A stretch of 64,000 nucleotides of DNA from Pseudomonas sp. B21-028 (GTDB lineage Bacteria; Pseudomonadota; Gammaproteobacteria; Pseudomonadales; Pseudomonadaceae): contig NZ_CP087184.1 of NCBI RefSeq assembly GCF_024749045.1, positions 4,588,001-4,652,000 of the forward strand, read 5' to 3'. The notes below the pieces were generated by a model. That model made no database searches. It was given only the letters and a program-made list of their open reading frames with translations, and was not told the origin of the DNA. Position numbers and translations under genes: made by a program. Of the stretch, positions 41,879 to 56,765 are shown piece after piece (the first letter of the stretch is position 1; every line of letters begins with the position of its first letter).

Positions 41879-42682
41879 TCAGACCTTGGCACCCAGCTCC
41901 GCCGACAACCGGGCTGTGACCCCTTTGACCAGGGGAATCAGCTCGGCCATTTTTTCCAGCGGCATGTACGGTACGGTGCTGGCAATGCTGATGCCGGCGA
42001 CAATCCGCTTGCCGGCATCCCGGATCGGCGCCGCCACGCAACGGATCGACGGTTCGTTGTCCTCCAGGTCGAAGGCATAGCCTCCCGCCACGTACTCCAT
42101 CATCCGCTGCTGGAACTGTTCCCAGGATTGCTCCTGGTGCTGGGGCCAGAATTGACTCTTCCCAGCGGCCGGCAGACTGATTTCGTACAACCGCCGCCAA
42201 TTGTCCTCGGGATCATCGAGCATCAGCGCCTTGCCGATCCCCGTGCGCGCCAACGGCATGCGATGGCCCACCCGCGAGCGCATTTCCGGGCCATTGCGCC
42301 CCGGATTCTTCAGCAGGTACAACACCTCGTCACCCTCGCGAATCGCCAGGTGAACGGTGTCGCCGGTCAATGCTGACAACTCGTCCAGGTACGGTCCCGC
42401 CAGGCTCACCAGTGGCAGTTCTTCCCGGGCCTGGAAACCCAGTTCGATCAACTTCGGCCCCAACAGGTAACCCACCTGCGGCACCACGCGCAGGTAGCGC
42501 TCGTCCACCAGGCAACTGGCCAGGCGATGGGTGGTGCTGCGGGTCGTGCCGATCAGCCGGGCAATTTCCTTCAGGTCACGGGCACCGCTGGCGACCGCTT
42601 GAACCACACCCAGGCCGCGCAGCAATGTCTGGGTACCTGTAGGCGCTACGTCCTTGGTGATTTTTGGATCGTCTTGCTGCAT
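41879..42682 (-). CDS. IclR-family regulator, likely of galactonate catabolism
   Basis: 267 residues. N-terminal winged helix (LLRGLGVVQAVASGARDLKE, then LIGTTRSTTHRLASCLVDER) and a C-terminal IclR effector domain (RVGHRMPLARTGIGKALM, PYMPLEKM). It is the last gene of the dgoK-dgoA-dgoD-transporter series, 61 bp after the transporter. IclR proteins bind short palindromes; the TCCCA-N5-TGGGA elements at 47138 and 54380 are the obvious candidates for its targets. That link is inference. Confidence 0.9.
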   Translation of the reverse strand: MQQDDPKITKDVAPTGTQTLLRGLGVVQAVASGARDLKEIARLIGTTRSTTHRLASCLVDERYLRVVPQVGYLLGPKLIELGFQAREELPLVSLAGPYLDELSALTGDTVHLAIREGDEVLYLLKNPGRNGPEMRSRVGHRMPLARTGIGKALMLDDPEDNWRRLYEISLPAAGKSQFWPQHQEQSWEQFQQRMMEYVAGGYAFDLEDNEPSIRCVAAPIRDAGKRIVAGISIASTVPYMPLEKMAELIPLVKGVTARLSAELGAKV

Positions 42683-42743: not shown

Positions 42744-44054
42744 CTACAACTCGATGCGCTCGACCTTCCCAACCAGCAGGATGTAGGACAGCGCGCCCAC
42801 CAGCGCGAGCACGGCGATATAGGTGATGGCCGGGGCAAACGAATCGCCGCTGGCGAGGAAGCCAATGACAATCGGCGTGGCGATGGCCGCCAGGTTGCCG
42901 ATGAAGTTGAACACCCCACCCGTCAGCCCGAGCAGCCGCGCCGGCGCCAGGGTCGATACCAGCGACCAGGTGATCGACGCCAGGCCATTGCCGAAGAAGG
43001 CCAGCGCCAGGAACGCGATCACCAGCGGCGTCGATTCAACGAAGTTGGCGCCAATGATCGAGGTCGAGATCAGCAACCCGCCAATGATCGGCAGCTTTCG
43101 GGCGAACCCGACCGTGGCGCCACGACGGATCAGCCAGTCGGAAAAGAACCCGGAACACAACACGCCGACAAACGCCGCGAGAAACGGCAACGATGCCAGC
43201 AGGCCGGACTTGATGAAGTCCATGCCGCGATATTTCACCAGGTAGGTCGGGAACCACGTCAGGAAAAACCACAGCGTGGAGTTCAGGCAGAACTGGCCCA
43301 GGTAGATGCCCCACAGCTTGCGGCGGGTCAGGACGGTACCCAGGTCGGTCCAGCTGAATTTCGCCTTGGTCTTGGCCGCCTCGGCCTGGATGTCCACCAA
43401 ACCGCCGCCCTCGCGAATCAAATCGATTTCAGCGGCGTTGGCGCCCTTGAAATCCCGTGGTTCGCGATACACGGCGTACCAGATTACCGCCCAGATGATA
43501 CCGACCGCACCGGTCACCACGAACACCATGTGCCAGCCAAACGTGTGCTGCAGCCAGGCCAGCACCGGCGTCAGGAAGGCCAGGCCAACGAACTGCCCAG
43601 AGGTGTAGAAGCCGATGGCCGTGGCCCGCTCGCGCTCGGGAAACCAAGTGGTGACCACGCGGCTGTTGATGGGATAGGCCGGCGCCTCCAGGGCACCGAC
43701 CGCCATGCGCAGCACGAACAGGGCGATGAAGCTGGCGGCGAAACCGAGCATCACCGTGGCCAGCGACCACAACAGCAACGCGACGCTGTACAGAATCCGC
43801 GGCGGCACGCGGTCCACCAGCCAGCCACCGGGGATCTGCATGGCCGCGTAGGTCCAGCCGAACGCCGAGAAGATCAGCCCGACATGGATCGGGTCGATGC
43901 CCAGTTCACTGGTCAGCGCGGGGGCGGCAATCGACAGGTTGCTGCGGTCCAGGTAGTTGATCACCACGGTGATGAACAGCAGGACCATGATGAAAAAACG
44001 CTTGCGGCTGGGCGTCACCAACGACGCCTGCGCGCTCAGGGTGTGCGCTTGCAT
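42744..44054 (-). CDS. MFS transporter of the anion:cation symporter family, galactonate-type
   Basis: 436 residues with 12 hydrophobic segments. NYLDRSNLSIAAPAL after helix 1 and the helix 4 region RMAVGALEAPAYPINSRVVT are typical of the ACS family (DgoT, GudP, ExuT). Given the genes around it, D-galactonate is the likeliest substrate. It is separated from dgoD by a 90-bp REP pair, so its expression may differ from that of the upstream genes. Confidence 0.9.
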   Translation of the reverse strand: MQAHTLSAQASLVTPSRKRFFIMVLLFITVVINYLDRSNLSIAAPALTSELGIDPIHVGLIFSAFGWTYAAMQIPGGWLVDRVPPRILYSVALLLWSLATVMLGFAASFIALFVLRMAVGALEAPAYPINSRVVTTWFPERERATAIGFYTSGQFVGLAFLTPVLAWLQHTFGWHMVFVVTGAVGIIWAVIWYAVYREPRDFKGANAAEIDLIREGGGLVDIQAEAAKTKAKFSWTDLGTVLTRRKLWGIYLGQFCLNSTLWFFLTWFPTYLVKYRGMDFIKSGLLASLPFLAAFVGVLCSGFFSDWLIRRGATVGFARKLPIIGGLLISTSIIGANFVESTPLVIAFLALAFFGNGLASITWSLVSTLAPARLLGLTGGVFNFIGNLAAIATPIVIGFLASGDSFAPAITYIAVLALVGALSYILLVGKVERIEL

Positions 44055-44232: not shown

Positions 44233-45381
44233 TCACCACTCGGCAAAACTGCCATCGGCATGGCGCCAGATCGGATTGCGCCAGCGGTGGCCGACGGCGG
44301 CGCGTTCGATGACGTACTCCTCGTTGATCTCGATGCCCAGGCCCGGGCCGTTGGGGATCTTCACGAAGCCTTTGTCATAGTCGAACACCCGCGCATCCTT
44401 GACGTAATCCAGCAGGTCGTTGCTCTCGTTGTAGTGGATGCCCAGGCTCTGTTCCTGGATGAACGCGTTGTAGCAAGCCGCATCCAGTTGCAGGCATGCC
44501 GCCAGGGCAATCGGGCCCAGCGGACAGTGCAGCGCCAGCGCCACGTCGTAGGCCTCGGCCATGTTGGCGATTTTGCGGGTTTCGGTGATGCCACCGGCGT
44601 GGGACGCATCCGGCTGGATGATGTCCACGTAGCCTTCGCTGAGCACTCGCTTGAAATCCCAGCGGGAAAACAGCCGTTCGCCCAGGGCAATCGGCGTGCT
44701 GGTCAGCGGTGCCAGCTCCTTGAGGGCCTCGTAGTTTTCGCTGAGCACCGGCTCTTCGATAAACATCAGTTTGTACGGGTCGAGTTCCTTCATCAGCACC
44801 TTGGCCATCGGCTTGTGGACCCGGCCGTGGAAGTCCACGCCGATGCCGACGTTCGGCCCTACCGCGTCCCGCACCGCTGCCACATTGGCGAGGGCCAGGT
44901 CGACTTTTTCGAAGGTGTCGAGAAACTGCAGCTCTTCAGTGCCGTTCATTTTCACTGCCGTGAAGCCTCGCCCTACCGCTTCTTTCGCTGCGCGGGCGGT
45001 GTCCGCCGGCCGGTCGCCGCCGATCCATGAGTAGACGCGAATCTTGTCGCGCACCTGACCGCCCAGCAGGTCGCTGACCGACACGCCCAGTGCCTTGCCC
45101 TTGATGTCCCACAACGCCTGGTCGATACCGGCCAGGGCGCTCATGTGCACGGCGCCACCGCGATAGAAGCCGCCGCGATACAGCACGGTCCAGATGTCTT
45201 CGATGTTGCGTGGGTCTTTGCCGATCAGGTAGTCGGACAATTCCTCGACGGCGGCCGCTACCGTATGGGCACGGCCCTCGACCACCGGCTCGCCCCAACC
45301 GGTCACGCCCTCGTCGGTCTCGACCTTGAGGAAGCACCAGCGCGGTGGAACGATAAAGGTGGTCAGTTTGGTGATTTTCAT
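44233..45381 (-). CDS. dgoD: D-galactonate dehydratase
   Basis: 382 residues, enolase superfamily. N-terminal capping domain ([20 protein letters not shown]), barrel with metal ligands in [19 protein letters not shown] and GERLFSRW, and the catalytic His region [10 protein letters not shown]. It removes water from D-galactonate to give 2-dehydro-3-deoxygalactonate. 48 bp from dgoA upstream; same transcript as dgoK and dgoA. Confidence 0.94.
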
Positions 45382-45429: not shown

Positions 45430-46050
45430 TCAGTTCAAGGCATTCCACGCGGCCACGTAAGCCTTGGCGCGCACCGCAACCTCGTCAGCTGTCAGGCCCG
45501 GCTTGAACAGCCCGGAGCCCAGGCCGAACCCCTTGACGCCTGCCTCGAGGAACACCGCCATGTTGTCCGGCGTGATCCCACCCACCGGCACCAGCACGGT
45601 CCCGGCCGGCAGCACCGCGAGCCAGGCCTTGACCACCGCCGGGCCCATTTGCTCGGCAGGAAACAACTTCAATACATGGGCGCCTTCGGCCAACGCGGCA
45701 AATGCCTCGGTCGGCGTGGCGACGCCGGGCGAGAGATAGAGCCCCGCCGCTTTCGCCGCCCGCAACACCTTCGGATCGCTGTGGGGCATGACGATCACCT
45801 GGCCACCGGCGGCTTTGACCTGCTCCACTTGCTCCGGCGTCAGCACGGTGCCGGCGCCGATCAGGCAGTCGGCGGGCAAGGTATCGCGCAGGATGCGAAT
45901 ACTTTCGTATGGCTCGGGGGAATTGAGCGGTACTTCGATGACGCGAAATCCCGCGCTGTACAGGACTTCGCCGATGGCTGCCGCCTCTTCGGGACGCAGA
46001 CCGCGCAGGATCGCGATCAGCCCGTTGTGCGCCAGTGCTTGTGTGAGCAT
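45430..46050 (-). CDS. dgoA: 2-dehydro-3-deoxy-6-phosphogalactonate aldolase
   Basis: 206 residues, KDPG-aldolase-type barrel. LIAILRGLRPEEAAAIGE at the N-terminus; catalytic Glu region IEVPLNSPEP; Schiff-base Lys in HVLKLFPAE. Splits the phosphorylated sugar acid to pyruvate and D-glyceraldehyde 3-phosphate. Lies 19 bp from dgoK. Confidence 0.94.
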   Translation of the reverse strand: MLTQALAHNGLIAILRGLRPEEAAAIGEVLYSAGFRVIEVPLNSPEPYESIRILRDTLPADCLIGAGTVLTPEQVEQVKAAGGQVIVMPHSDPKVLRAAKAAGLYLSPGVATPTEAFAALAEGAHVLKLFPAEQMGPAVVKAWLAVLPAGTVLVPVGGITPDNMAVFLEAGVKGFGLGSGLFKPGLTADEVAVRAKAYVAAWNALN

Positions 46051-46069
46051 GTCAGACCTCCAGTCAGGT

Positions 46070-47053
46070 TTAACGCGATGCGCTGGATTCGAGCAGCCCG
46101 GCCGCCACGGCCAGTTGCCACAAACCCCGTTCGGTGGCCTGTTCGGCCAGGGTCACCCGGGCAAAGCCGCAGGCGTCGAGGGCCCGTTGATAACGGGCGC
46201 AGAGTTGGGAGTTGCCGATCAGCACCACCGTCGGCAAGTGCACGCTATTGCGCCGATGGCGTTGTGCGGCGGCCAGTGCCGTCAGCTCATGGCCGATCAA
46301 CAAACCAGAGAGATAGTCAGCCTGGGCACTCGCGCCGAGTTCGCCGGTCAGCCCCAGGCTGCGAGCGCTGAACACGGTGGACAGCGGGCCGACCTGTCCG
46401 TCCGTCGACAGCGCCACCTGCACACCCCGGTCGAAGGCCACGCCGTCGAACGCGGCGCCGCGCTGTTGGGTACGGCCGAGAATGCTGTGGTCGCTGAGCA
46501 CGGCGAAGATTTCGCCGGTCATGAAGGTGTCGAAATGCACGATGCAGCCGTCGGCCACTTCCACCCATTTCGAGTGACTGCCGGGCAAACCGATCAGCAC
46601 CGCTTCGTTCGGCAAGCTGTGCAAGGCGCCGAGTACCTGGGTTTCTTCGCCGCGCATCACATTGGGCAACCGCGAACGCTGGATCACCCCTGGCACGATA
46701 TGCACATCGACACCGCGAAGACTCCGAACGGTTTGTAGGGAATGTCCGAGATTGGCGACGTTCGCCGGTGTGTCGCAGTAAGGCGCTTCGCACCAGCCCT
46801 GGGCGCTGCCGACCATGCCGCAGGCAATGACGGGCAGGCCCGGCTGCGCGTCCAGCCAATCACCGCAGGCTTCGTCGAACGCCAGCTCGAAACCGTTGGT
46901 GCACACCCGACCGGCCACGGTTCGTGGCCCGGAAGGCAACTGCATGATCCCCGACGAAAGCGAGCGCTGTTCGAGCACCTCGCCTCCCGCGGCGAGTTTG
47001 TAAGCCCGTAGTGAGGTAGTCCCCCAATCGAGCGCGATCAATTGCGCCTGCAT
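46070..47053 (-). CDS. dgoK: 2-dehydro-3-deoxygalactonokinase
   Basis: 327 residues, sugar-kinase fold. ALDWGTTSLRAYKL is the phosphate-1 motif; LIGLPGSHSKWVEV and IGNSQL match DgoK. ATG at 47053 with AGGTGAAG 4-11 bases upstream. First gene of the dgo operon, controlled by the promoter at 47094-47123. Confidence 0.93.
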   Translation of the reverse strand: MQAQLIALDWGTTSLRAYKLAAGGEVLEQRSLSSGIMQLPSGPRTVAGRVCTNGFELAFDEACGDWLDAQPGLPVIACGMVGSAQGWCEAPYCDTPANVANLGHSLQTVRSLRGVDVHIVPGVIQRSRLPNVMRGEETQVLGALHSLPNEAVLIGLPGSHSKWVEVADGCIVHFDTFMTGEIFAVLSDHSILGRTQQRGAAFDGVAFDRGVQVALSTDGQVGPLSTVFSARSLGLTGELGASAQADYLSGLLIGHELTALAAAQRHRRNSVHLPTVVLIGNSQLCARYQRALDACGFARVTLAEQATERGLWQLAVAAGLLESSASR

Positions 47054-47093
47054 CCGCTTCACCTGTTCTGTTTTTTGGCAGTGAGTGGCACGG

Positions 47094-47123
47094 ACTATAA
47101 ACCTGAGCACGGCAAAATCTCAA
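47094..47123 (-). promoter_or_regulatory. Sigma70-type promoter of the dgo operon
   Basis: On the minus strand TTGAGA (47123-47118), 18-bp spacer, TATAGT (47099-47094). The same boxes and spacing occur upstream of the sugar dehydrogenase gene at 54336-54365. Confidence 0.65.
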
Positions 47124-47137
47124 TATATAAATATCAC

Positions 47138-47152
47138 TCCCATATATTGGGA
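47138..47152. promoter_or_regulatory. Palindromic operator TCCCATATATTGGGA upstream of dgoK
   Basis: TCCCA and TGGGA half-sites with an AT-only 5-bp centre, 14 bp upstream of the -35 box. An almost identical site is at 54380. Position upstream of -35 suggests an activator or a double-acting IclR protein. The site also lies 91 bp from the divergent GST gene. Confidence 0.6.
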
Positions 47153-47242
47153 CGCTCACGAGATCATCCAAAACCATCGCCATCTACCCCACGACCCTGC
47201 TACGTTTCCTGTCCGGACGCCTTAACTCTCAGGGATAACGAA

Positions 47243-47875
47243 ATGGGACAACTGCTGAAAATTCTCGGCCGCACTTCCTCGATCAACGTCAGAAAAGTGC
47301 TATGGACTTGTCAGGAATTGGACATCTCCTACGAGCGCGAAGATTGGGGGATCGGCTTCAATTCCACCCACGATCCTGCGTTCCTGGCGCTTAACCCAAA
47401 CGCCCAGGTACCGGTGATCATCGATGAGAACGGTGTGCTCTGGGAGTCGAACACCATCTGCCGTTATCTGGTGGGCAAGCATGGGCGCAATGACCTGCTG
47501 CCGCTAGAGCCGGCGGCCAGGGCCCGGATCGAGCAATGGATGGATTGGCAGGCGACGGAACTCAACCCGTCATGGGGTTACGCGTTTCACGCGCTGGTGC
47601 GCAAGAATCCGGATATGCAGGACCCACAATCCATCGCCGCCGGCATCAAGGGCTGGAACGAAAAGATGGGGTTGCTGGAGCAGCAGTTGAATCGCACCGG
47701 CGCCTACGTTGCCGGTGCGGATTTCTCCCTGGCGGACGTGCTCATCGGCCTGTCCGTGCACCGCTGGCGCCAGACGCCCATGGAACGGCCGGACTACCCG
47801 GCCGTGGCCGCCTATTGCAAGCGGCTCGAACAACGACCGGGGTTTACCGAATATGCTGGGGCCGGGTATTCCTGA
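47243..47875 (+). CDS. Glutathione S-transferase family protein
   Basis: 210 residues. Thioredoxin-fold N-terminus (LGRTSSINVRKVLWTCQELD) with a Ser-type active-site region SSINVRK, cis-Pro in NPNAQVPVI and ESNT binding glutathione; then the all-helical domain with GADFSLADVLIG (N-capping box). ATG at 47243; AGGGAT lies ~9 bases upstream. Divergent from dgoK. Substrate unknown. Confidence 0.92.
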   Translation: MGQLLKILGRTSSINVRKVLWTCQELDISYEREDWGIGFNSTHDPAFLALNPNAQVPVIIDENGVLWESNTICRYLVGKHGRNDLLPLEPAARARIEQWMDWQATELNPSWGYAFHALVRKNPDMQDPQSIAAGIKGWNEKMGLLEQQLNRTGAYVAGADFSLADVLIGLSVHRWRQTPMERPDYPAVAAYCKRLEQRPGFTEYAGAGYS

Positions 47876-47880
47876 GACCT

Positions 47881-48363
47881 TCAGTTGCCTTGGGCGAAAT
47901 CCCGTAGCACCTTGCCGTCCATCCGGTAGCGCACCCATTCTTCCTGGGGTTGCGCGCCGAGGGATTTGTAGAACTCGATCGCCGGCGTGTTCCAGTCCAG
48001 GACGCTCCATTCGAAACGACCGCAGTCGTTGTCGCAGGCGACCTTGGCCAGATGGCGCAACAACGTCTTGCCCGCCCCGCCGCCACGCTGTTCGGGCGTG
48101 ATGTACAGGTCTTCAAGGTACAGGCAGTTGCTGCCCAACCAGGTGGAGTAGCTGAAGAAAAACACCGCGAAACCAATCGGTACGCCATCGCGCAGGCAGA
48201 TCAGCCCGTGGGCGGTCGCGCCTTCGCTGAACAGGCTGCGCTCGATGTCGGCCACACTGGCGATGACTTCGTGACGGGCCTTTTCGTAGTCGGCCAGTTC
48301 GGTGATGAAGGCAAGGATTTGAGGCGCATCGCTGGGTTGCGCAGGACGGATCTCGATCGACAT
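47881..48363 (-). CDS. GNAT-family N-acetyltransferase (diamine/thialysine acetyltransferase-like)
   Basis: 160 residues. Residues ~84-105 contain YLEDLYITPEQRGGGAGKTL, the acetyl-CoA loop, with the Tyr/Asp pair seen in SAT-type enzymes; C-terminal WSVLDWNTPAIEFYKSLGA is the motif B region. Members acetylate diamines or thialysine. Convergent with the GST gene, five bases apart. Confidence 0.9.
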   Translation of the reverse strand: MSIEIRPAQPSDAPQILAFITELADYEKARHEVIASVADIERSLFSEGATAHGLICLRDGVPIGFAVFFFSYSTWLGSNCLYLEDLYITPEQRGGGAGKTLLRHLAKVACDNDCGRFEWSVLDWNTPAIEFYKSLGAQPQEEWVRYRMDGKVLRDFAQGN

Positions 48364-48539
48364 GAACGGGCCTTGTAGCCAATTGAAAGCGCCATACTAA
48401 GCCGCCACGCGGCGCTCGTCACATTTCAATCCAAATGATGACTGCGCTGGCGAAAGCACCATTCGTCGCAACCCCGGCACCAACTCCGATCCAGCACGGC
48501 CCAAGATCAGGCAAGCATCTGAAAAATGGAGGCGACACC

Positions 48540-48884
48540 ATGATCACTTCAAGGCTGACTGCGTTCACATTTGCCGCACTGCTGTCTTCGGTGGCCTTCG
48601 CGGCGTCCACCTCCGGTACCGGGCCGACCGACCCGGTGGAGGCGCCCAACTCGCCGGCCACCCAGGGCATGCCCAAGTTGAATACCGACGGCACCGGCGG
48701 CGGCACCTTGAACAATGGCCAGCCACCCGCCACTGGCACCGATCCGCGTGTGCAGGGTAATGACATGGGCCGTCAGGGCGGCATGAACACACCGGACTCC
48801 ACAGCGCCCGATAACGCCGAAACCGGCGTGGGCTCGAAAACCACCAGCGGTGGTTCGGGCTCCGAAGGCGGCGCCAGCCAGTAG
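48540..48884 (+). CDS. Small secreted Gly/Thr/Asn-rich protein, unknown function
   Basis: 114 residues. GGAGG 9-13 bases before ATG at 48540. Signal peptide to AFA-A (residue ~22) then disordered Gly/Thr/Asn/Pro sequence without cysteines. It shares design with the protein at 10428-10769. It is followed, 32 bp later, by the Lys-rich gene at 48917, so they are probably co-transcribed. Confidence 0.75.
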   Translation: MITSRLTAFTFAALLSSVAFAASTSGTGPTDPVEAPNSPATQGMPKLNTDGTGGGTLNNGQPPATGTDPRVQGNDMGRQGGMNTPDSTAPDNAETGVGSKTTSGGSGSEGGASQ

Positions 48885-48916
48885 CCTCTGCTCACACACT
48901 TGAGGAGGAAAATCCC

Positions 48917-49297
48917 ATGCCTCGTGGAAGCAAAGACAAATACACCGCCGAGCAAAAGCGCAAGGCCGAACACATCGAAAAAAGCTACGAGAAGAAGGGC
49001 CTGTCCGAGGAGACGGCCGAAGCACGGGCTTGGGCGACGGTGAACAAACAGTCCGGCGGCGGCGAGCGCTCCGGCGGCTCGGGAAAACATAAACCGGCCG
49101 CGGAAAAGAAAACCGACCGCAAGGAATCGGCCCGTCGTGCAGCCAAGACCCGGGAAGGCCATCCGCGTAGCAGCAAGGCTTCCCATGAAACCCAGACGGT
49201 CGATAGCCTGATGAAAGAAGCACGGGCGAAAAACATTCCCGGGCGTTCGAAGATGCGCAAGCAGGAGTTGATCGAGGCGTTGCGCAAGGCCGCATGA
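48917..49297 (+). CDS. Basic protein with C-terminal Rho_N/SAP-like helix pair
   Basis: 126 residues, GAGGAGG upstream. The N-terminal 45 residues (KDKYTAEQKRKAEHIEKSYE) are helical and charged. The middle is a flexible Ser/Gly/Lys linker. The end VDSLMKEARAKNIPGRSKMRK then QELIEALRKA is a short Rho_N/SAP-like fold that often binds nucleic acid. In pseudomonads such proteins are named plasmid stabilisation-like without proof. Likely nucleic-acid binding. Confidence 0.8.
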   Translation: MPRGSKDKYTAEQKRKAEHIEKSYEKKGLSEETAEARAWATVNKQSGGGERSGGSGKHKPAAEKKTDRKESARRAAKTREGHPRSSKASHETQTVDSLMKEARAKNIPGRSKMRKQELIEALRKAA

Positions 49298-49319
49298 TTG
49301 ACCGCGTCAGGGCGGACGC

Positions 49320-49549
49320 CATCGCGAGCAGGCTCGCTCCCACATGGGGTCTGCGGCGTCTACGGGCTCCGCGACAGACACAAAACCCTGTGGGAGCGAG
49401 CCTGCTCGCGATAGCGCCAGGTCAGTCAACATCGATATCGATGTGCCGACGCCTTCGCGAGCAAGCCCGCTCCCACATGAGGTCTTGGGGCGGGCGCTGG
49501 TTTTGTGGCTGACACAAGCCCCGTGGGAGCCGGGCTTGCCCGCGATGGG
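49320..49549. repeat. Cluster of four REPs in alternating orientation
   Basis: REP cores at 49320-49346, 49388-49416, 49452-49480 and 49523-49549, orientations alternating. They fill the gap between two convergent genes. Confidence 0.9.
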
Positions 49550-49571
49550 GCCCGCCCGGTCGAAGCAGGTT

Positions 49572-50540
49572 TCAGCGCTGCTTCATGCGGTCGATCACCA
49601 CGGCGAGCAACAGGATCGAGCCACGGATGACGTATTGGTAGAAGGTGTCGATGTTCTTCAGGTTCATCGCGTTTTCGATGATCGCCAGAATCAGCACGCC
49701 GGCAATGACATGACGGATCATGCCGATACCACCGCTTAACGATACCCCACCCAGCACGCAGGCCGAGATCACCGTCAGTTCGAAGCCCTGGCCGATCATC
49801 GGTTGGCCGGACGTCATGCGCGAGGCCAGGATCACACCCGCCAGCGCACCGATCACACCGTGCACGGCGAAGATGATGATCTTGGTGCGATCGACGTTCA
49901 CCCCCGCCAGCAGCGCCGCTTCCTGGTTACCACCGATGGCCATGGTGTTGCGCCCATAGGTGGTGTAGTTCAACAACCAGCCGAAAAACAGGAAGCAGAC
50001 GATGGTGATCAGGATCGGTACCGGCACACCGAACAACTGGCCGTTGCCATACACGAAGAACGACTCCTGGGACACGCCCACCGCCTTGCCGTTGGCAAAG
50101 ATGTAGGCCAGGCCACGAACGATCTGCATGGTCGCCAGCGTCGTGATCAACGCATTGACCCGTAGCTTGGCAATGACGATGCCGTTGATCAGGCCAACGA
50201 TCAGGCCCATCACCAGCGCCGCGCAGACACCCAGGAACACGCTGTTGGTATCGCGCATCACCACCGCCGCGACCACGCCGGCACAGGCGATCACCGAGCC
50301 GACCGACAGGTCGAAATGCCCGGACGCCAGGCAATACAACATGGTGCAGGCCGCGATGCCGGTGGTGGAAATCGCCAGGCCAAGGCCCCGCATGTTCAAC
50401 GGCGACAGGAAATTGTCGATCAAGAAGGCGCAGAGCACGAAGATGCCGAGAGCCGCCAGCAGCATGACCCAATCGTCGAGGAACCGACGCATGTCCAGGG
50501 GTTTGCGTGCCGTCGGCAGTGCATTGTTTTGAATGGTCAT
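49572..50540 (-). CDS. araH: Sugar ABC transporter permease (AraH type)
   Basis: 322 residues with about 8-10 hydrophobic segments. The segment NTLTT-like INALITTLATMQIVRGLAYI and the conserved GGNQEAALLAGVNVDRTKI loop are typical of the ribose/arabinose permease family. It pairs with AraG and AraF just upstream in the same operon (10 bp from araG). Imports pentose or galactose. Confidence 0.92.
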   Translation of the reverse strand: MTIQNNALPTARKPLDMRRFLDDWVMLLAALGIFVLCAFLIDNFLSPLNMRGLGLAISTTGIAACTMLYCLASGHFDLSVGSVIACAGVVAAVVMRDTNSVFLGVCAALVMGLIVGLINGIVIAKLRVNALITTLATMQIVRGLAYIFANGKAVGVSQESFFVYGNGQLFGVPVPILITIVCFLFFGWLLNYTTYGRNTMAIGGNQEAALLAGVNVDRTKIIIFAVHGVIGALAGVILASRMTSGQPMIGQGFELTVISACVLGGVSLSGGIGMIRHVIAGVLILAIIENAMNLKNIDTFYQYVIRGSILLLAVVIDRMKQR

Positions 50541-50550
50541 GATTTACCTC

Positions 50551-52095
50551 TCAGTTCGCCGCGTCGGCAACGCGTTGGCGTGGCAGCGCCAGTTGCAGCA
50601 GGTTGGATTCGTTGGCCTGGTCACGCGACAGCTCGCCGCGCATGGCCCCTTCGCACAGCACCAGGATCCGGTCGGAAATGCCCATCACTTCCATCAGGTC
50701 GCTGGACACCACAATCACCGCGATGCCATTGGCCGCCAGGTTGTGGATGATCTGGTAAATCTCAGCCTTGGCACCGATGTCGATGCCGCGGGTTGGCTCG
50801 TCCAGCAACAGCACCTTCATCGGCATCGACAGCCAGCGACCGAGGATCGCCTTCTGCTGGTTGCCGCCGGACAGGAACATGATTTTCTGCCCCGCCGTGG
50901 GCGTCTTCACTTTCAACGCCTTGATCTGTTTGTCGGCATTGCCCTTTTCCCAATCGCCGCGCAACAGGCAACCAAAGGTGGAGTGGGCACTGCGGGCGCT
51001 AATGTTGATGTTCTCGCCGACGCTGGCCAGGGGCATGATGCCTTCTTTCTTGCGATCTTCCGGGCAGAGCAGCACGCCGGCGGCGATAGCATCCCGGGGC
51101 GAGCGCAGTTTCAGCGCTTCACCGTGCAGGACCATGTTGCCTTCGGTCTGGCGTTCCAGGCCACTGAGCAATCGCAGCAACTCGGTGCGTCCGGCCCCCA
51201 CCAGCCCGAACAACCCGAGGACTTCACCTTTGCGCACCTGAAAACTCACCGGCTCACGCAGCCCCGGACCGAGCAGGCGATCGACCTGCAGCGCCACTTC
51301 ACCGTGTTCACGAACGCGATAGTCGTAGATGTCCTGGATATCGCGCCCGACCATGCAGGTGACCAACTGATCGTGGGTCAACTCGCTCATGTTTTCGAAG
51401 GTGCGCACGTAGCGGCCGTCCTTGAACACCGTCACCGCGTTACAGATGCGGAACACCTCTTCCATGCGGTGGCTCACGTACAGCACCACTTTGCCCTCGT
51501 CCCGCAGGCGGGCGATGATCGCCATCAAGCGGTCGATTTCCCGTGCTGAAAGGCTGCTGGTGGGTTCATCGAAAGCAATCACATGGGCGCCCCGGGACAA
51601 GGCCTTGGCGATTTCCACCAGTTGGCGCTGACCGAGGGACAGGCGACCGACTTTTTCCTGGGGATCGATTTCGTCGGCCAGGCCCTTGAGCAGCGCCAAT
51701 GCCTGCTGGCGCAACACGCCGCGATTGACCAGGCCAAACCGGGCCGGCAAATGGCCCAGGAACAGGTTTTCGGCCACCGTCATTTCCGGCACCAGGTGCA
51801 GCTCCTGGTGAATCACCGCCACGCCGCTGGCGATGCTGTCGGCCGTGCATTTGAAGGCCATCGTCTGCTCGCCGATCTGCAACTCGCCGCTGCTCGGTAT
51901 GTAGGCCCCTCCAAGAATCTTCAGCAACGTGGACTTGCCCGCGCCGTTTTCCCCCATCAAGGCATGAACCTGGCCTGGATGGGCAACAAAACTGATATTG
52001 GCCAACGCCTGTACGCCAGGAAAGGTCTTGCCGATTCCATTGAACCGCAAGCTGGCGCCGATGTTGTGTTGCTGTGTCGCTGTTTGCGCTTGCAT
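50551..52095 (-). CDS. araG: Sugar ABC transporter ATP-binding protein (AraG type)
   Basis: 514 residues with two ABC domains. First: Walker A GENGAGKST, signature LSLGQRQLVEIAK. Second: GLVGAGRTE (degenerate Walker A), LSGGNQQKAILGRW. ATG at 52095 (longer frame rejected), GAGGTGG upstream. Powers sugar import by AraF and AraH. Confidence 0.94.
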   Translation of the reverse strand: MQAQTATQQHNIGASLRFNGIGKTFPGVQALANISFVAHPGQVHALMGENGAGKSTLLKILGGAYIPSSGELQIGEQTMAFKCTADSIASGVAVIHQELHLVPEMTVAENLFLGHLPARFGLVNRGVLRQQALALLKGLADEIDPQEKVGRLSLGQRQLVEIAKALSRGAHVIAFDEPTSSLSAREIDRLMAIIARLRDEGKVVLYVSHRMEEVFRICNAVTVFKDGRYVRTFENMSELTHDQLVTCMVGRDIQDIYDYRVREHGEVALQVDRLLGPGLREPVSFQVRKGEVLGLFGLVGAGRTELLRLLSGLERQTEGNMVLHGEALKLRSPRDAIAAGVLLCPEDRKKEGIMPLASVGENINISARSAHSTFGCLLRGDWEKGNADKQIKALKVKTPTAGQKIMFLSGGNQQKAILGRWLSMPMKVLLLDEPTRGIDIGAKAEIYQIIHNLAANGIAVIVVSSDLMEVMGISDRILVLCEGAMRGELSRDQANESNLLQLALPRQRVADAAN

Positions 52096-52163
52096 AACCA
52101 CCTCGAACTCACAGAGATCAAGCGGCCCCAAGACTCCGGGGCCGCTTTTGAATCAACCGGCCG

Positions 52164-53168
52164 TCAGTTCCACAGGCCGATCTTTTCCAGCTCCTGCTTG
52201 AAGTTCTCCCGAGTGATCAGCGTCACCTCGTCCATGGCGGTGTACTTCGGTGGTTCCTTGCCGGTGGTGACCCACTCGAACATCATCTCGGCAGTCTTGT
52301 AGCCTTCGATGTGCGGGCTAGGCAGCATCGAACCGAAGAAACCGCTGTGGGGTTTCTTCAACTCGCCGATGGCGTCGGTACCATTGATGCCGATCCCGAT
52401 CACGTTGTCTGCCTTGAAGCCGGCGCTTTCAGTCGCGCGCACGCCACCCAGCACAGTGTTGTCGTTCATGCCGCCGATGATCAGGTTCTTCGCACCGCTG
52501 GGCAGTTTCACCAGCGCGGAGTTGGTGGAGTCCATGCTCCCCGGTACGTCGAGGGTCTTGAGCGCCGTGGTGAGGATGTGATCGTCCGGCATACCGGCTT
52601 TCTTGAGGGCGTCCATCGAACCGTCGGTGCGTTTCTTGCCGGTGTCCAGCTCGTTGAAGGTGTTGATCACAGCGTAGGTTTCTTTCCAGTCCCAGCCACG
52701 TTTTTTGGCTTCAGCAGCCATGGCGGCCCCCTGCTTCTGGCCCACTTCGAACGCGGCCATGCCGAGGTATGGCACATCTTCCATGAACTTGCCGCTGGCA
52801 TCGACGAAACGGTCATCGACAGCGATGACTTTCATATTGTTGAGCTTGGCCTTGGCCATGATGGCCGGGCCCAGGGACACGTCTGGCGGGCAGATCACGA
52901 AGCCCTTGGCGCCGTTGGCCGCGAGGCTGTCGATGGCCGAGAGGGTCTTCTCACCATCGGGCACGGCAATCTTGATCACCTTGAAGCCCTTGTCCTTGCC
53001 CGCCTTCTCGGCGAACGCCCATTCGGTCTGGAACCAGGGCTCCTCGGCCTGCTTGACCAGAAAACCGATCTTCACTTCTTCAGCCGCCAGCAAGGAACTG
53101 CTGAGACCAACCGCGGCAACAGCCAGGGCAACGCGGCACAGGGAACGGATCCCACGACGATGATTCAT
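52164..53168 (-). CDS. araF: Periplasmic sugar-binding protein (AraF type)
   Basis: 334 residues. Signal peptide to LLA-A (~29), then KIGFLVKQAEEPWFQTEWAF, IAVPDGEKTLSAIDSLAANG and IIGGMNDNTVLGGVRATE, all very close to E. coli AraF, which binds L-arabinose and also D-galactose and D-fucose. ATG at 53168 with AAGGAG 7-12 bases upstream. First gene of araFGH. Confidence 0.95.
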   Translation of the reverse strand: MNHRRGIRSLCRVALAVAAVGLSSSLLAAEEVKIGFLVKQAEEPWFQTEWAFAEKAGKDKGFKVIKIAVPDGEKTLSAIDSLAANGAKGFVICPPDVSLGPAIMAKAKLNNMKVIAVDDRFVDASGKFMEDVPYLGMAAFEVGQKQGAAMAAEAKKRGWDWKETYAVINTFNELDTGKKRTDGSMDALKKAGMPDDHILTTALKTLDVPGSMDSTNSALVKLPSGAKNLIIGGMNDNTVLGGVRATESAGFKADNVIGIGINGTDAIGELKKPHSGFFGSMLPSPHIEGYKTAEMMFEWVTTGKEPPKYTAMDEVTLITRENFKQELEKIGLWN

Positions 53169-53287
53169 AGTTGACTCCTTGTTTTTTTTATTGAAAGCCA
53201 AACGTCCAGGGTCTGCTCCACCATCGGTGGCAAAACGCAGGCTGGGCGGTCACAGCAAGTTGCTACAGCATAGATCCAAATAGTCAT

Positions 53288-53301
53288 ATCGTATGATGAT
53301 T
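53288..53301. promoter_or_regulatory. FadR-type operator candidate upstream of araF
   Basis: Minus-strand AATCATCATACGAT, 13 of 14 bases shared with the site at the gntR promoter (56053). A TCATA/TATGA inverted pair overlaps it. Confidence 0.5.
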
Positions 53302-53340
53302 GAATTGCAGGCAAAGTTTCAGACTGCAATCCCGGAATAT

Positions 53341-54159
53341 TCAGTCGTGGTACATGACCGAACGTCCACCATCAATGGTGATACATGAAGCGTTGATGAA
53401 AGGTGCTTCATCACTGGCCAGAAACACGGCCGTCATTGCCACTTCGATCGGTTGCCCGATGCGCCGTGGCGGGTGCAGATCCAGCGCACGCTGGCGTTCG
53501 GCATGAGGATCGGCAAAGCCGTTCCAGTAGTCGACGTTCAGTTGGGTTTCGATATAGCCCGGCGCGATGGCGTTGACGCGTATGCCCTTGGGGGCGTATT
53601 CGATGCCCAGGGCACGGGTCAGGCCGAGCAAGCCATGCTTGGCCACCGGGTACGGGAAACAGCCAGGAATGATGTGGGACGAATGGGTCGAAGCAATGTT
53701 GATGATGCTGCCCACGCCCTGCTCGATCATCTGCGGCAATACAGCCTTGCAACCGTACCAGGCGCCGTCCAGGTCGATGGCGAAGCAGCGGCGCCAGTCT
53801 TCCTCGGTCATTTCCAGCGGGTCGCGGAACACATTGACGCCAGCGCAGTTCACCAGCACATCGATGCGGCCGTGCAGTTCAACGGCATGGCGGGCCATGG
53901 CCTGCAAGTCCTGCGGGTTCGACACATCGGCTTGCAAGGCTTGCACGGCTGCCCCGCGCTCACGCCAGTAAGCGGCAACCTGCTCGACCTTGTCAGCCTG
54001 GATGTCGCTGATCACCAGTCGCGCCTGTTGTGAAGCGAACGCCGCGACAATGGCCTCGCCAATACCTTGGGCGGCACCGGTCAGCAGCACCACTTTGTTC
54101 TTCAGCCGCTCGCCCTTCGGTGGCTCGGGCACCGGCGGCAAGGAAAGTGCCTCAGCCAT
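53341..54159 (-). CDS. SDR-family sugar 1-dehydrogenase (D-galactose or L-arabinose)
   Basis: 272 residues. TGAAQGIGEA cofactor loop, DVSNPQD, NCAGVN, catalytic Ser in NIASTHS and YPVAK (Tyr/Lys); GIRVNAIAPGYIET. An N-terminal tail of ~18 residues (MAEALSLPPVPEPPKGER) precedes the fold. With the lactonase, transporter and dgo genes it most likely oxidises D-galactose (perhaps also L-arabinose) to the lactone. Its promoter cassette matches that of dgoK. araF starts 172 bp downstream with its own operator. Confidence 0.85.
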   Translation of the reverse strand: MAEALSLPPVPEPPKGERLKNKVVLLTGAAQGIGEAIVAAFASQQARLVISDIQADKVEQVAAYWRERGAAVQALQADVSNPQDLQAMARHAVELHGRIDVLVNCAGVNVFRDPLEMTEEDWRRCFAIDLDGAWYGCKAVLPQMIEQGVGSIINIASTHSSHIIPGCFPYPVAKHGLLGLTRALGIEYAPKGIRVNAIAPGYIETQLNVDYWNGFADPHAERQRALDLHPPRRIGQPIEVAMTAVFLASDEAPFINASCITIDGGRSVMYHD

Positions 54160-54283
54160 GGTTCACCGCTCCCCGGTCCGCAACCACGACAAAAACCGGG
54201 CATCCAGGGATGACCGGCCAAAGGCGCTGGGAGGACAGTGGGTCACGTACGCCACTGGGGCGTACGGGAATGGATCGTTGCAT
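54152..54283 (-). CDS. Possible 43-residue leader peptide overlapping the sugar dehydrogenase start
   Basis: ATG at 54283 with AGGTGAAG immediately upstream, at the place that corresponds to the dgoK start in the duplicated promoter cassette. The frame ends at TGA 54154-54152, five bases into the dehydrogenase gene, in another frame. The product (MQRSIPVRPSGVRDPLSSQR...) matches nothing I know. Translational coupling to the dehydrogenase, or a remnant of the copied cassette, are both possible. Confidence 0.4.
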   Translation of the reverse strand: MQRSIPVRPSGVRDPLSSQRLWPVIPGCPVFVVVADRGAVNHG

Positions 54284-54335
54284 CACTTCACCTGTTTTGT
54301 TTTTTTAGTGTGAATGCGTGTTGCTGATGAAGCCG

Positions 54336-54365
54336 ACTATAAACCCGGCCAGCCAACAATCTCAA
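54336..54365 (-). promoter_or_regulatory. Sigma70-type promoter of the sugar dehydrogenase gene
   Basis: Minus-strand TTGAGA (54365-54360), 18-bp spacer, TATAGT (54341-54336), identical boxes and spacing to the dgoK promoter. Confidence 0.65.
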
Positions 54366-54379
54366 TATATATATTTACA

Positions 54380-54394
54380 TCCCATATTTTGGGA
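54380..54394. promoter_or_regulatory. Palindromic operator TCCCATATTTTGGGA upstream of the sugar dehydrogenase
   Basis: Same half-sites and spacing as at 47138, 14 bp upstream of the -35 box. It touches the stop region of the lactonase gene. Confidence 0.6.
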
Positions 54395-54395
54395 T

Positions 54396-55271
54396 TTAAC
54401 CCGCAAACCGCGTACAGCTCACACCTGGCACATCGACTCGCATGGACAGCACCGCGCCATCCAGCGGATGACCCGACGGGCTGGCCGCACTGGTGATGTA
54501 CAGGGTCTTGAGATCGTCCCCCCCAAACACGCAACTGGTGGGACGACTGACCGGCAGTTCGATCACCCGGTCGACCTGTCCGTCAGGGCTGATTCGCAGC
54601 AGGCAACTGCCGTCCCAGCGGGCGTTCCAGATATAACCACGGGCGTCCATTGCCGATCCGTCCGGCCCGCCGCGCGAATGGGGGCCGAACCAGACTTCGG
54701 CGGGGGCCAGGCTGCCATCGGGATGGATGAAATGCCGGTATAACGTGCCGTCGAGGCTTTCACCGAAATACACCGTGGTGCCATCAGGGCTCCACAGCAG
54801 CGTGTTGGGAATACCCCGCCCACGCAGCAACGGCATGACCCGACCATCGGCGCCCACGCGAAACAAGCCCCCCGACCGGTGTTCCAGGGGCAGATCCTCA
54901 CCGTTTTCGCCGATGTTGTTCTGCATCGTCCCGAGCCACAGCTGGCCCAGGGCATCGCAACGGGCTTCGTTGGCTCGGTTGCCGGGCTGGGGATCGGCCA
55001 TGCACAGCAATGTCAGGCGCGGCTCCAGGCCCGGCGAATCGAGATCCAGCCGGTAGATACCGCTGCTCAGCGTCACCAGCGCATCCCCTCTCTGCGTCGG
55101 GATGAAGGCGGAAACATGTTCGGGCATCTGCCAGATCTGCACATTGGCACCGATCAACCGCAGTGCCTGTTTGCCAGCGATGTCGACCCAATACAGCGCC
55201 TGGGTCGGCGCGTCCCAGAAGGGCCCCTCGCCCAGTTTCGCCCGGTGCTCCGTTACCGCCTTCCACATCAT
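54396..55271 (-). CDS. SMP-30/gluconolactonase family sugar lactonase
   Basis: 291 residues, six-bladed beta-propeller. Metal-ligand segments: GEGPFWDAP (Glu), NRANEARCDALGQLWLGTM (Asn), and PDGSAMDARGYIWNARW (Asp). Hydrolyses the lactone formed by the dehydrogenase. ATGATG start overlaps the gntR stop, GGGAGG upstream. Transcribed with the regulator. Confidence 0.92.
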   Translation of the reverse strand: MMWKAVTEHRAKLGEGPFWDAPTQALYWVDIAGKQALRLIGANVQIWQMPEHVSAFIPTQRGDALVTLSSGIYRLDLDSPGLEPRLTLLCMADPQPGNRANEARCDALGQLWLGTMQNNIGENGEDLPLEHRSGGLFRVGADGRVMPLLRGRGIPNTLLWSPDGTTVYFGESLDGTLYRHFIHPDGSLAPAEVWFGPHSRGGPDGSAMDARGYIWNARWDGSCLLRISPDGQVDRVIELPVSRPTSCVFGGDDLKTLYITSAASPSGHPLDGAVLSMRVDVPGVSCTRFAG

Positions 55272-56014
55272 TGAAACCTCCCGTTTCCAGCTTGCCCGCC
55301 AGTGTCCGTACGACCGGCCATCACATTTGGGTAGAAGCGCTTGATGGCCAGGTCAGCGTTGTCGATCAGGGTCATGCAGGCCCAGACGCCCCGTGTCGCG
55401 TCGCGGGACGCGATGGCTTCGGCGATGTCCTTGTGAATGGGCAAGGTACGGCGCAGTTCATCCGGATCGGCGGCCGATACCTCGAACGACACAGCCAGCA
55501 ACGCCCCCAAGGCCGGGACCATTTGTTCTATGAATTGATTGTGGCTGGCGGCGAGGATGCACTCGTGAAAAAACTGGTCGGCCCGGTTGTAATCGGCACC
55601 GCTGTCCACGGCTCGCTCCAGCGCATGATAGGCCAGGCGGATCGCCTGCACCTGCTCGACCGTCGCCCGCTCGCAGGCCCAGCGCACCGCCATCGGCTCG
55701 ATGGTGCGGCGCAGATCCAACAGGTCATCGACAAAATTCTCTGGCAAACCGCTGCGTGACAACCAGCCGACCACCTGTGGGTCGAACAGGTTCCAGCGTC
55801 GCACCGGCAACACCCGCGTCCCCACCTTCGGTCCGACCTCGAGCATGCCTTTGGCCACCAGGGTCTTGATCGCCTCGCGAATCACCGTGCGACTGACCCC
55901 CAGTTGCTCGCCCAGGTCTGCCTCGACCTTGATCGTCTGCCCAGGCTTGACCTGGCCGGCGGCGATCCAACCGCCGAGCCAATCGACGGTCGATGCGTGA
56001 AAACTGCTGGACAT
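55268..56014 (-). CDS. FadR-subfamily GntR regulator of the sugar region
   Basis: 248 residues. N-terminal winged helix (VEADLGEQLGVSRTVIREAI, then KTLVAKGMLEVGPKVGTRVL) and C-terminal FCD helical domain with metal-binding residues (DLLDLRRTIEPMAVRWA, ADQFFHECILAASHN). ATG 56014 is chosen over GTG 56032. Co-transcribed with the lactonase. A palindrome sits in its own promoter spacer, suggesting autoregulation. Confidence 0.92.
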   Translation of the reverse strand: MSSSFHASTVDWLGGWIAAGQVKPGQTIKVEADLGEQLGVSRTVIREAIKTLVAKGMLEVGPKVGTRVLPVRRWNLFDPQVVGWLSRSGLPENFVDDLLDLRRTIEPMAVRWACERATVEQVQAIRLAYHALERAVDSGADYNRADQFFHECILAASHNQFIEQMVPALGALLAVSFEVSAADPDELRRTLPIHKDIAEAIASRDATRGVWACMTLIDNADLAIKRFYPNVMAGRTDTGGQAGNGRFQ

Positions 56015-56052
56015 GAAAACCCCGCGGGCCACTCTTATTGGTGGCTTACGCT

Positions 56053-56076
56053 AATCATCATATGATTGGCTGTCAA
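56053..56076 (-). promoter_or_regulatory. gntR promoter -35 (TTGACA) with operator AATCATCATATGAT in the spacer
   Basis: Minus-strand TTGACA at 56076-56071 is a consensus -35. ATCATATGAT (56057-56066), a perfect palindrome, follows at once, where a repressor would block RNA polymerase. The -10 is weak. Confidence 0.55.
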
Positions 56077-56098
56077 TTGAATTCGTTCTGGACACACA

Positions 56099-56187
56099 TG
56101 TGGGAGCAAAGCTTGCTCGCGAAGGCGTAGTGTCAGTCAACATCCATGCTGGCAGCGTTATCGCGAGCAAGCTTTGCTCCCACAGGT
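56099..56187. repeat. REP pair (inverted)
   Basis: TGTGGGAGCAAAGCTTGCTC and ATCGCGAGCAAGCTTTGCTC, between gntR and the DUF1285 gene, followed by a partial third copy (TCGCTCCCACAGG, 56188-56200). Confidence 0.9.
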
Positions 56188-56204
56188 CGCTCCCACAGGA
56201 GGGG

Positions 56205-56765
56205 TTACGGTTCCAGGCCTATCGGAAAGAACATCCCGCCACTCCACACCCCCAGCCAGCGCTGCCCGTCAATCTCGCGGCTCACCGCCAGCTCCACCAA
56301 CTGGTAGAACACATTTCGGTGGATCAACGCTTCGAGGTTACTGCGCACATGCACGTAGGGCGCCGGCTCCTGGGTGTGTGGATCGATCACCACCCGCATC
56401 GGATGGTCGGGGCCGGCCTCGGTGGTTTCATCGACATGAGTCGTGAAGCGCAACAACTGCCCTTCTCCCTGGCCTTCGACCTCCAGGGTCACGGCCACGA
56501 ACGGCGCATCGTCGACCTGGATGCCGACTTTTTCCACAGGGGTAATCAGGAAGTAGTCATCGCCGTCGCGGCGGATGATGGTGGAGAACAGCTTGACCAT
56601 CGGCTTGCGTCCGATGGGCGTGCCCTGGTAGTACCAGGTGCCATCGCGAGCGATGCGCATGTCGATGTTGCCGCAGAAGTCGGGGTTCCATAAGTGGACC
56701 GGCGGCAGGCCTTTGGTCTTGGGGATCTGCCCCAGCAGGTCATTGGCTTTTTGCGGTCCGCTCAT
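56205..56765 (-). CDS. DUF1285 protein
   Basis: 186 residues. WNPDFCGNIDMRIARDGTWYY, PIGRKPMVKLFSTIIRRDGD and YFLITPVEKVGIQVDD are characteristic of DUF1285, whose structures show a double beta-barrel-like fold of unknown role. Transcribed with the DUF4823 lipoprotein gene, 15 bp downstream of it. Confidence 0.9.
   Translation of the reverse strand: MSGPQKANDLLGQIPKTKGLPPVHLWNPDFCGNIDMRIARDGTWYYQGTPIGRKPMVKLFSTIIRRDGDDYFLITPVEKVGIQVDDAPFVAVTLEVEGQGEGQLLRFTTHVDETTEAGPDHPMRVVIDPHTQEPAPYVHVRSNLEALIHRNVFYQLVELAVSREIDGQRWLGVWSGGMFFPIGLEP

Follow-up and report, generated by a model that had tools for sequence, protein, structure and literature searches.

A comparative survey of IclR-family regulators described, for 94 orthologous groups, tandem sites separated by 18–22 nt and, for 32 groups, three-box sites in which the direction alternates, and cited PcaU, PobR, and HmgR for an external half-site beside a palindrome (Suvorova and Gelfand, 2021; PMC8222616). 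For the De Ley-Doudoroff galactose pathway, work with dgoKAD of Pseudomonas fluorescens SBW25 concerned the same pathway genes and used the native dgoKAD promoter, and the word 'regulator' occurs zero times in the main text of that paper (word search; PMC6927180). Here, we analyzed a stretch of 64,000 nucleotides of Pseudomonas sp. B21-028 (hereafter the window, whose position numbers are used throughout), in which two cassettes of ~120 bp, each an operator-promoter-leader unit, stand before dgoK and before a gene of the short-chain dehydrogenase (SDR) family. We consider it probable, at roughly 0.8, that both cassettes are read by the IclR-family protein encoded at 41879–42682. The system is of a known kind, a further example of IclR-type control. 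In Escherichia coli, the genes for galactonate breakdown are likewise controlled, but by a regulator of a different family than the reader proposed here: DgoR, a GntR/FCD protein, controls the dgo operon.

The two cassettes were composed of the following elements:

47148..47152, minus strand: half-site 1 (TCCCA) of the dgoK cassette (sequence, palindrome scan, site alignment)
47138..47142, minus strand: half-site 2 (TGGGA) of the dgoK cassette (sequence, site alignment)
47118..47123, minus strand: TTGAGA of the dgoK cassette, the −35 hexamer; putative third half-site TGAGA at 47118–47122, 20 bp from half-site 2
47094..47099, minus strand: −10 hexamer TATAGT of the dgoK cassette, inside the conserved GGTTTATAGTC (site alignment, promoter scan)
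47057..47065, minus strand: CAGGTGAAG, ribosome site of dgoK (sequence)
54390..54394, minus strand: half-site 1 (TCCCA) of the SDR cassette (sequence, palindrome scan, site alignment)
54380..54384, minus strand: half-site 2 (TGGGA) of the SDR cassette (sequence, site alignment)
54360..54365, minus strand: TTGAGA of the SDR cassette, the −35 hexamer and putative third half-site (54360–54364) (site alignment, promoter scan)
54336..54341, minus strand: −10 hexamer TATAGT of the SDR cassette (site alignment, promoter scan)
54286..54294, minus strand: CAGGTGAAG of the SDR cassette, with an A-rich stretch before it (sequence, site alignment)

A preliminary description of this locus had reported the layout TCCCA-N5-TGGGA, 14 bp, TTGAGA, 18 bp, TATAGT at both places, which was borne out by the minus-strand sequence; the full palindromes (47138–47152 at dgoK and 54380–54394 at SDR) were the only exact matches in the window. 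Its claim of identical spacing at every step held from the palindrome to TATAGT but not beyond, since TATAGT and CAGGTGAAG were 28 bp apart at dgoK vs. 41 bp on the SDR side, a difference visible as gaps in the cassette alignment. The ribosome site CAGGTGAAG, described as shared, was indeed present in both cassettes. At dgoK it serves the gene itself (ATG at 47053), but on the SDR side it precedes the ATG (54283) of a leader open reading frame (ORF) of 43 codons, behind which the SDR ORF starts at 54159. In a consensus scan, TTGAGA-18-TATAGT matched the sigma-70 consensus at 10 of 12 positions at both sites, with the hexamers spaced within the 16–18 bp of sigma-70 promoters. It was the sole promoter-like site in each 401-base stretch, with means of 0.3 and 0.2 in shuffled sequences. 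The dgoK palindrome itself also scored as a terminator-like stem in the promoter/terminator scan of the dgoK stretch.

The palindrome alone was weak evidence, as it is not rare: up to two mismatches gave 18 matches in the window vs. 33.5 expected, and the genome search for TCCCA-N5-TGGGA that the preliminary description had proposed returned seven exact places in the 6.49-Mb genome, compared to three for the reversed control. With five of the seven genomic palindromes outside the cassette list, the bare palindrome was rejected as a genome-wide regulon marker. A longer pattern, consisting of the palindrome plus TTGAGA at the set distance with at most three mismatches, was searched in 95 genomes; it occurred at two places in this genome and was found in 42 of the 95, whereas its reversed form gave zero matches in each of them. 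When the spacer was made one base too long, no genome of the same genus matched, and two of other genera did.

Counts on named loci refer to the best 80 of 388 Pseudomonas loci. Among these, the SDR cassette was present in 78 of the 79 with a binding-protein gene and the dgoK cassette in 54 of the 55 with dgoK. The two exceptions were L046, where the contig ends before the site, and L082, which has a site with TACAGT as −10 hexamer and a 17-bp spacer; loss of the palindrome before dgoK in relatives, named earlier as the outcome that would speak against the proposal, was thus not what was observed. The site alignment comprised 132 sites, 64 of them distinct, with L082 (which failed the TATA filter) and L046 left out. 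GGGA of half-site 2 was found in all 132 sites and its T in 131, TTGAGAT was unchanged in 132 of 132, and GGTTTATAGTC deviated at two positions only, in a single row each, whereas the 12 bases separating the −35 and −10 hexamers were variable. Because the filter preset G.GA, TTGA.A, and TATA near −10, and the operator-to-−35 distance was preset as well, part of this invariance is by construction, and the passing of the filter by 132 of 134 sites is the better measure. A weight-matrix scan of 40 fetched loci (threshold >8 bits) gave 28 matches, of which 17 were before dgoK, seven before SDR, two before iclR, and two at MFS genes (Pfam). These last two, weaker cassettes at the gene starts (L114, ~6553–6589, G019, 27.8 bits; L117, ~6121–6157, G021, 36.2 bits), suggest a larger regulon in two genomes. 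A palindrome at contig position 3256376 of G022 was set aside, with no window-protein match on the fetched stretch and a site score below 8 bits.

The candidate reader of these cassettes was encoded downstream of dgoK:

41879..42682, minus strand: IclR-family regulator at the end of dgoKAD-MFS-iclR (Pfam IclR_C and HTH_IclR; co-occurrence; operon position in relatives)

Both the helix-turn-helix domain (PF09339, 43.8 bits vs. 22) and the C-terminal effector domain (PF01614, 103.1 bits vs. 24) were recognized. The protein remained below the NCBIfam cut-offs for BhcR (105 vs. 350 bits), KdgR (103 vs. 275), PcaR/PcaU/PobR (91 vs. 285), AllR (69 vs. 406), and IclR (69 vs. 380), and by these profiles it is a family member outside those five named groups. 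The closest solved structure by sequence was 5w1e (E 7e-29). In full-text searches of the open-licence literature, no paper on this regulator in Pseudomonas was among those listed, and a binding experiment was not found in the literature searched.

The preliminary description had proposed one regulator for both operons, most likely the IclR protein, and comparative genomics supports this assignment. In the set of 95 genomes, IclR orthologues were called at E ≤ 1e-60, GntR orthologues at E ≤ 1e-45, dgoK at E ≤ 1e-50, and the cassette by the longer pattern, which gave 42 genomes with the cassette, 43 with IclR, 24 with GntR, and 42 with dgoK. Cassette and IclR agreed in 94 of the 95 (42 with both, 52 with neither, and one with IclR only), IclR being present in all 42 cassette genomes. 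The single IclR-only genome, G022, has a degraded site before dgoK (L110). Outside the genus, the IclR protein was found at 1e-55 in G000 and G093 only, among 369 genomes of the class. Linkage was read in the 23 genomes with fetched loci, and in 16 of them (G022 with its degraded site included) iclR was part of a cassette-bearing operon or lay directly behind one. Its position differed: iclR closed the operon dgoKAD-MFS-iclR (e.g., G017, G025, G042), closed an operon of SDR, binding protein, ATPase, permease, and iclR (G016, G029, G047, G058), or came last in one fused operon that has a single cassette (G006, G036, G043). It was the first gene behind the cassette in G001 and G093, the latter with the order cassette-iclR-dgoK and the former without a dgoK match and with the cassette directly before iclR. 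On this assignment, the IclR protein would bind both cassettes, and a compound of the pathway would be the inducer.

Several observations weigh against this assignment. The genomes are related, so the counts are non-independent, and dgoK tracked the cassette nearly as well as IclR did (41 of 42). Because dgoK, IclR, and the cassette all belong to one pathway, co-occurrence alone is compatible with an unlinked regulator, encoded outside these operons, that reads the cassettes and just happens to be found together with the pathway; it does not separate such a regulator from IclR. In three of the 23 genomes iclR was indeed apart from the cassettes: G031 and G051 had no cassette in the 12 kb around iclR, and in G019 iclR was located ~9 kb beyond the dgo operon. 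In four more, contig ends hide the link, as the draft assemblies break close to iclR (L122 of G055, L102 of G004, L103 of G030, and L134 of G039). An unlinked reader is nevertheless unlikely in view of the 16 linked genomes, which include G093 from a different family and G001, where iclR adjoins the cassette even without a dgoK match. The notion of two good sigma-70 promoters, each accompanied by a chance palindrome, could draw on the commonness of the bare palindrome, but its probability is negligible given the empty reversed control, the effect of a single added spacer base, and the strong conservation over 132 sites.

The remaining candidate was the second regulator encoded near the SDR cassette, for which a separate operator was predicted:

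55268..56032, minus strand: GntR/FCD regulator (domain search; start probably 56014, by eye)
56051..56068, minus strand: candidate GntR operator CAATCATATGATGATTAG (conserved element; once in the window, in neither cassette)

That this GntR/FCD protein is encoded near the SDR cassette, both in the window and in named loci among those listed, speaks for it as the reader, but the assignment is very improbable and was rejected, as the site neither tracks gntR nor is shared with the gntR promoter. The protein was absent (E ≤ 1e-45) from 19 of the 42 cassette genomes. It is the first gene of an SMP30-ABC operon lacking SDR in five fetched loci, and no cassette above 8 bits was found there. Moreover, a distinct element of its own, CAATC.TATGAT.ATTAG (at most three mismatches), was located upstream of gntR in all of 81 loci; the copy in the window lies just behind a TTGAC motif. 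Unlike E. coli DgoR, this GntR protein does not follow the dgoK promoter, and its candidate operator is a separate one.

As judged from its conservation, the proposed IclR operator is larger than the palindrome, with TTGAGA doubling as a putative half-site. TTGAGAT repeats half-site 2 (TGGGAT) exactly 20 bp downstream and differs from it toward TTGACA. The conserved block upstream of TTGAGA exceeds what a −35 box requires, and in G093, from another family, half-site 3 reads TTGGGA. The operator would accordingly hold three TGRGA half-sites, namely the inverted pair TCCCA-N5-TGGGA and, 20 bp on, a third in the same orientation as the second, which would coincide with the sigma-70 −35 hexamer 18 bp from TATAGT. 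It may represent a tandem IclR operator in which the upstream palindrome is strong and the downstream one, over the −35 box, is weak. The WTT-11-AAW consensus (PMC8222616) was matched at 14 of 17 (SDR) and 12 of 17 (dgoK) positions at the palindromes, and at 12 of 17 (SDR) and 13 of 17 (dgoK) positions 20 bp further on. With a tandem sum of at least 25 of 34, a scan of the window returned these two places only, although the threshold, subgroup, and spacing were chosen after looking.

In common with the published tandem operators, palindrome centers are ~20 nt apart here, within the range of 18–22 nt as measured by the half-site spacing of 20 bp, and the sites lie near sugar or sugar-acid genes and the regulator's own operon (PMC8222616). 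The second palindrome is weak, however: it is retained chiefly in its right half, and this half doubles as the −35 box. PcaU, PobR, and HmgR of Acinetobacter and Pseudomonas share the arrangement of an inverted pair with an external third half-site but differ in their GTNCG-type consensus and in belonging to aromatic pathways (PMC8222616). The fit to the family is imperfect in further respects, which count against an IclR reader: the window palindromes match the published consensus incompletely, TCCCA/TGGGA departing from its core at a symmetric pair of positions; the dgoK palindrome fits other published subgroups slightly better (ii, 13 of 17; iv, 14 of 18); and half-sites 2 and 3 point in the same direction, as opposed to the alternating three-box sites of the survey (PMC8222616). 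The spacing and subgroup were, as stated, selected post hoc, and the first pair test, made on the plus strand only and with other thresholds, found zero pairs.

As for the sign of regulation by the IclR protein, release from repression has slightly better than even odds. Repression is mildly favored over activation for two reasons: −35 and −10 boxes close to consensus are retained beneath the operator, and the SBW25 dgoKAD genes with their native promoter support growth in P. putida, probably without this regulator. With these genes and this promoter, P. putida KT2440, which does not use galactonate, was able to grow on galactose; growth was slow, followed a lag of 52 h, and sped up once other genes had been added (PMC6927180). 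If the SBW25 promoter corresponds to this cassette and KT2440 is without this IclR, as is expected from the near-perfect IclR-dgoK link, the promoter works without IclR. The slow growth and the lag of that strain count against a repressor, as does the upstream dyad, centered ~58 bp ahead of the expected start, a position that an activator could use as well. Activation is the less likely alternative: IclR could act in a class II-like manner, with contacts to RNA polymerase made from the upstream palindrome and from the −35 half-site, as described for PcaU and PobR. These two also combine a palindrome with an external half-site and are called activators in the titles of papers cited by the survey (PMC8222616), and the distance between operator and −10 hexamer, preset by the filter as far as the −35, was constant over the 132 aligned sites, with the 17-bp spacer of L082 aside. 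On the other hand, with 10 of 12 consensus positions the promoter may not need help, and the growth of the P. putida strain on the native SBW25 promoter is more easily reconciled with repression.

The similarity of the two cassettes extended beyond the operator and promoter. Alignment of the two window cassettes scored 69 vs. 24 for the shuffled maximum and ran from the operator to ATGCA. By the same comparison of one genome's two cassettes, the alignments in G016, G004, and G058 began in or at the operator and stopped at ATGCAGGC[AG]CAA; they scored 65, 85, and 77, respectively, where shuffles reached at most 23, 24, and 27. The two cassettes are, by this similarity, of shared descent, and the alignment extents indicate that the unit held the operator, promoter, and leader and, in G016, G004, and G058, the first four codons (MQAQ). 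Between the dgo operon and the operon for the dehydrogenase and transporter, the unit would have spread by copying. In the window, the SDR copy adjoins the stop codon of the SMP-30 gene. The genes concerned were:

46070..47053, minus strand: dgoK, 2-keto-3-deoxy-galactonokinase (Pfam PF05035, E 1.2e-98)
45430..46050, minus strand: dgoA, KDPGal aldolase (NCBIfam NF006600, 299 bits vs. cut-off 207)
44233..45381, minus strand: dgoD, galactonate dehydratase (NCBIfam NF010624, 706 bits vs. cut-off 311)
42744..44054, minus strand: MFS transporter of the dgo operon (Pfam PF07690)
53341..54159, minus strand: SDR dehydrogenase (ORF and family searches)
52164..53201, minus strand: sugar ABC transporter, binding protein (Pfam PF00532)
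50551..52131, minus strand: sugar ABC transporter, ATPase (domain search)
49572..50540, minus strand: sugar ABC transporter, permease (domain search)
54396..55271, minus strand: SMP-30 family lactonase, co-directional with gntR, its end adjoining the SDR cassette (Pfam PF08450)

The SDR enzyme is a probable D-galactose/L-arabinose 1-dehydrogenase, its substrate being suggested by the gene context. Through the copying, one regulator would set both halves of galactose oxidation, that is, uptake and oxidation on the one side and galactonate breakdown on the other. This would be a clear case of wiring by copying, in which a promoter unit with operator and leader was duplicated and separated operons stay under one switch. 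The proposed assignment provides a regulator, an operator, and a small regulon for the oxidative galactose pathway of many Pseudomonas species. With the operator defined, an expression part for Pseudomonas that responds to galactose or galactonate can be tested directly.

On the SDR side, the stretch between the cassette and the dehydrogenase gene contained two further elements:

54152..54283, minus strand: leader ORF of 43 codons (variable in sequence among relatives; its stop and the SDR start share 8 bp)
54190..54217, minus strand: terminator-like hairpin CCGG.CATC-N4-GATG.CCGG plus T run, within the leader ORF (pattern and stem scans)

Leaders were compared for the window and 78 loci (n = 79; the ORF count skipped three, and L018 had no SDR start assigned). 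The leader stop was 8 bp inside the SDR start in 47 of 76, and the ORF was 16–56 codons long in relatives that keep the leader; in L021, L026, and L097 the leader was deleted and SDR was fused to the cassette start. The hairpin was found in 73 of 79 leaders with at most two mismatches to a pattern chosen after looking, the other six being without it, and was followed by at least five T in the next nine bases in 72 of the 73. A stricter, blind scan detected a terminator-like stem in 40 of 79 leaders vs. one of 79 when shuffled, a different stem in at least L030 and L092. The fold of the whole leader was no more stable than that of shuffles (z −0.84). Among 28 distinct hairpins, 11 of 22 columns were invariant, which leaves little information on pairing changes. 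In 72 of 73 leaders the leader frame stayed open as far as the end of the hairpin, and selection on this frame is unsupported because a second frame was nearly as open (68 of 73). In all seven fetched SDR cassettes without an adjacent SMP-30 gene, SDR starts directly at the cassette, with no such hairpin between them.

The CA motif of Hfq/Crc, AAnAAnAA (PMC10617552), was present in exact form near the SDR-side ribosome site in 78 of 78 named loci. On the dgoK side, 21 exact and 30 one-mismatch motifs were counted in the 51 leaders (of 54) with a recognized ribosome site; in the window, the A-rich stretch just upstream of the dgoK CAGGTGAAG resembles the motif with one mismatch (by eye). Counts at other genes of the cluster were mostly zero, yet the motif was found at SMP30 in 54 of 77 and at the binding-protein gene in six of 79. 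From these features, the SDR leader could be a translation-gated attenuator responsive to Hfq/Crc, which we regard as a doubtful, speculative reading. On a preferred carbon source, Hfq/Crc would block the leader, the hairpin would form, and transcription of the dehydrogenase and transporter genes would stop; when the leader is translated, ribosomes would open the hairpin and hand over to the dehydrogenase. Such an attenuator may have originated through insertion of the copied cassette between the stop codon of SMP-30 and a pre-existing terminator.

Elsewhere in the cluster, an ORF at 48549–49343 (264 codons), located between the transporter and GST genes, had no Pfam match at 0.001 and is probably not a gene. 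Upstream of gntR, a long inverted repeat was found at 56095–56188, which we take to be REPIN-like; the four Rfam matches there (45900–56400 searched) were dismissed, as all were below gathering scores and belonged to unsuitable miRNA families. Far from both operons, at 340–1322 of the window, a match to a 15-base pattern recurred four times in steps of ~323 bp (340, 663, 985, and 1308), which suggests a tandem repeat.

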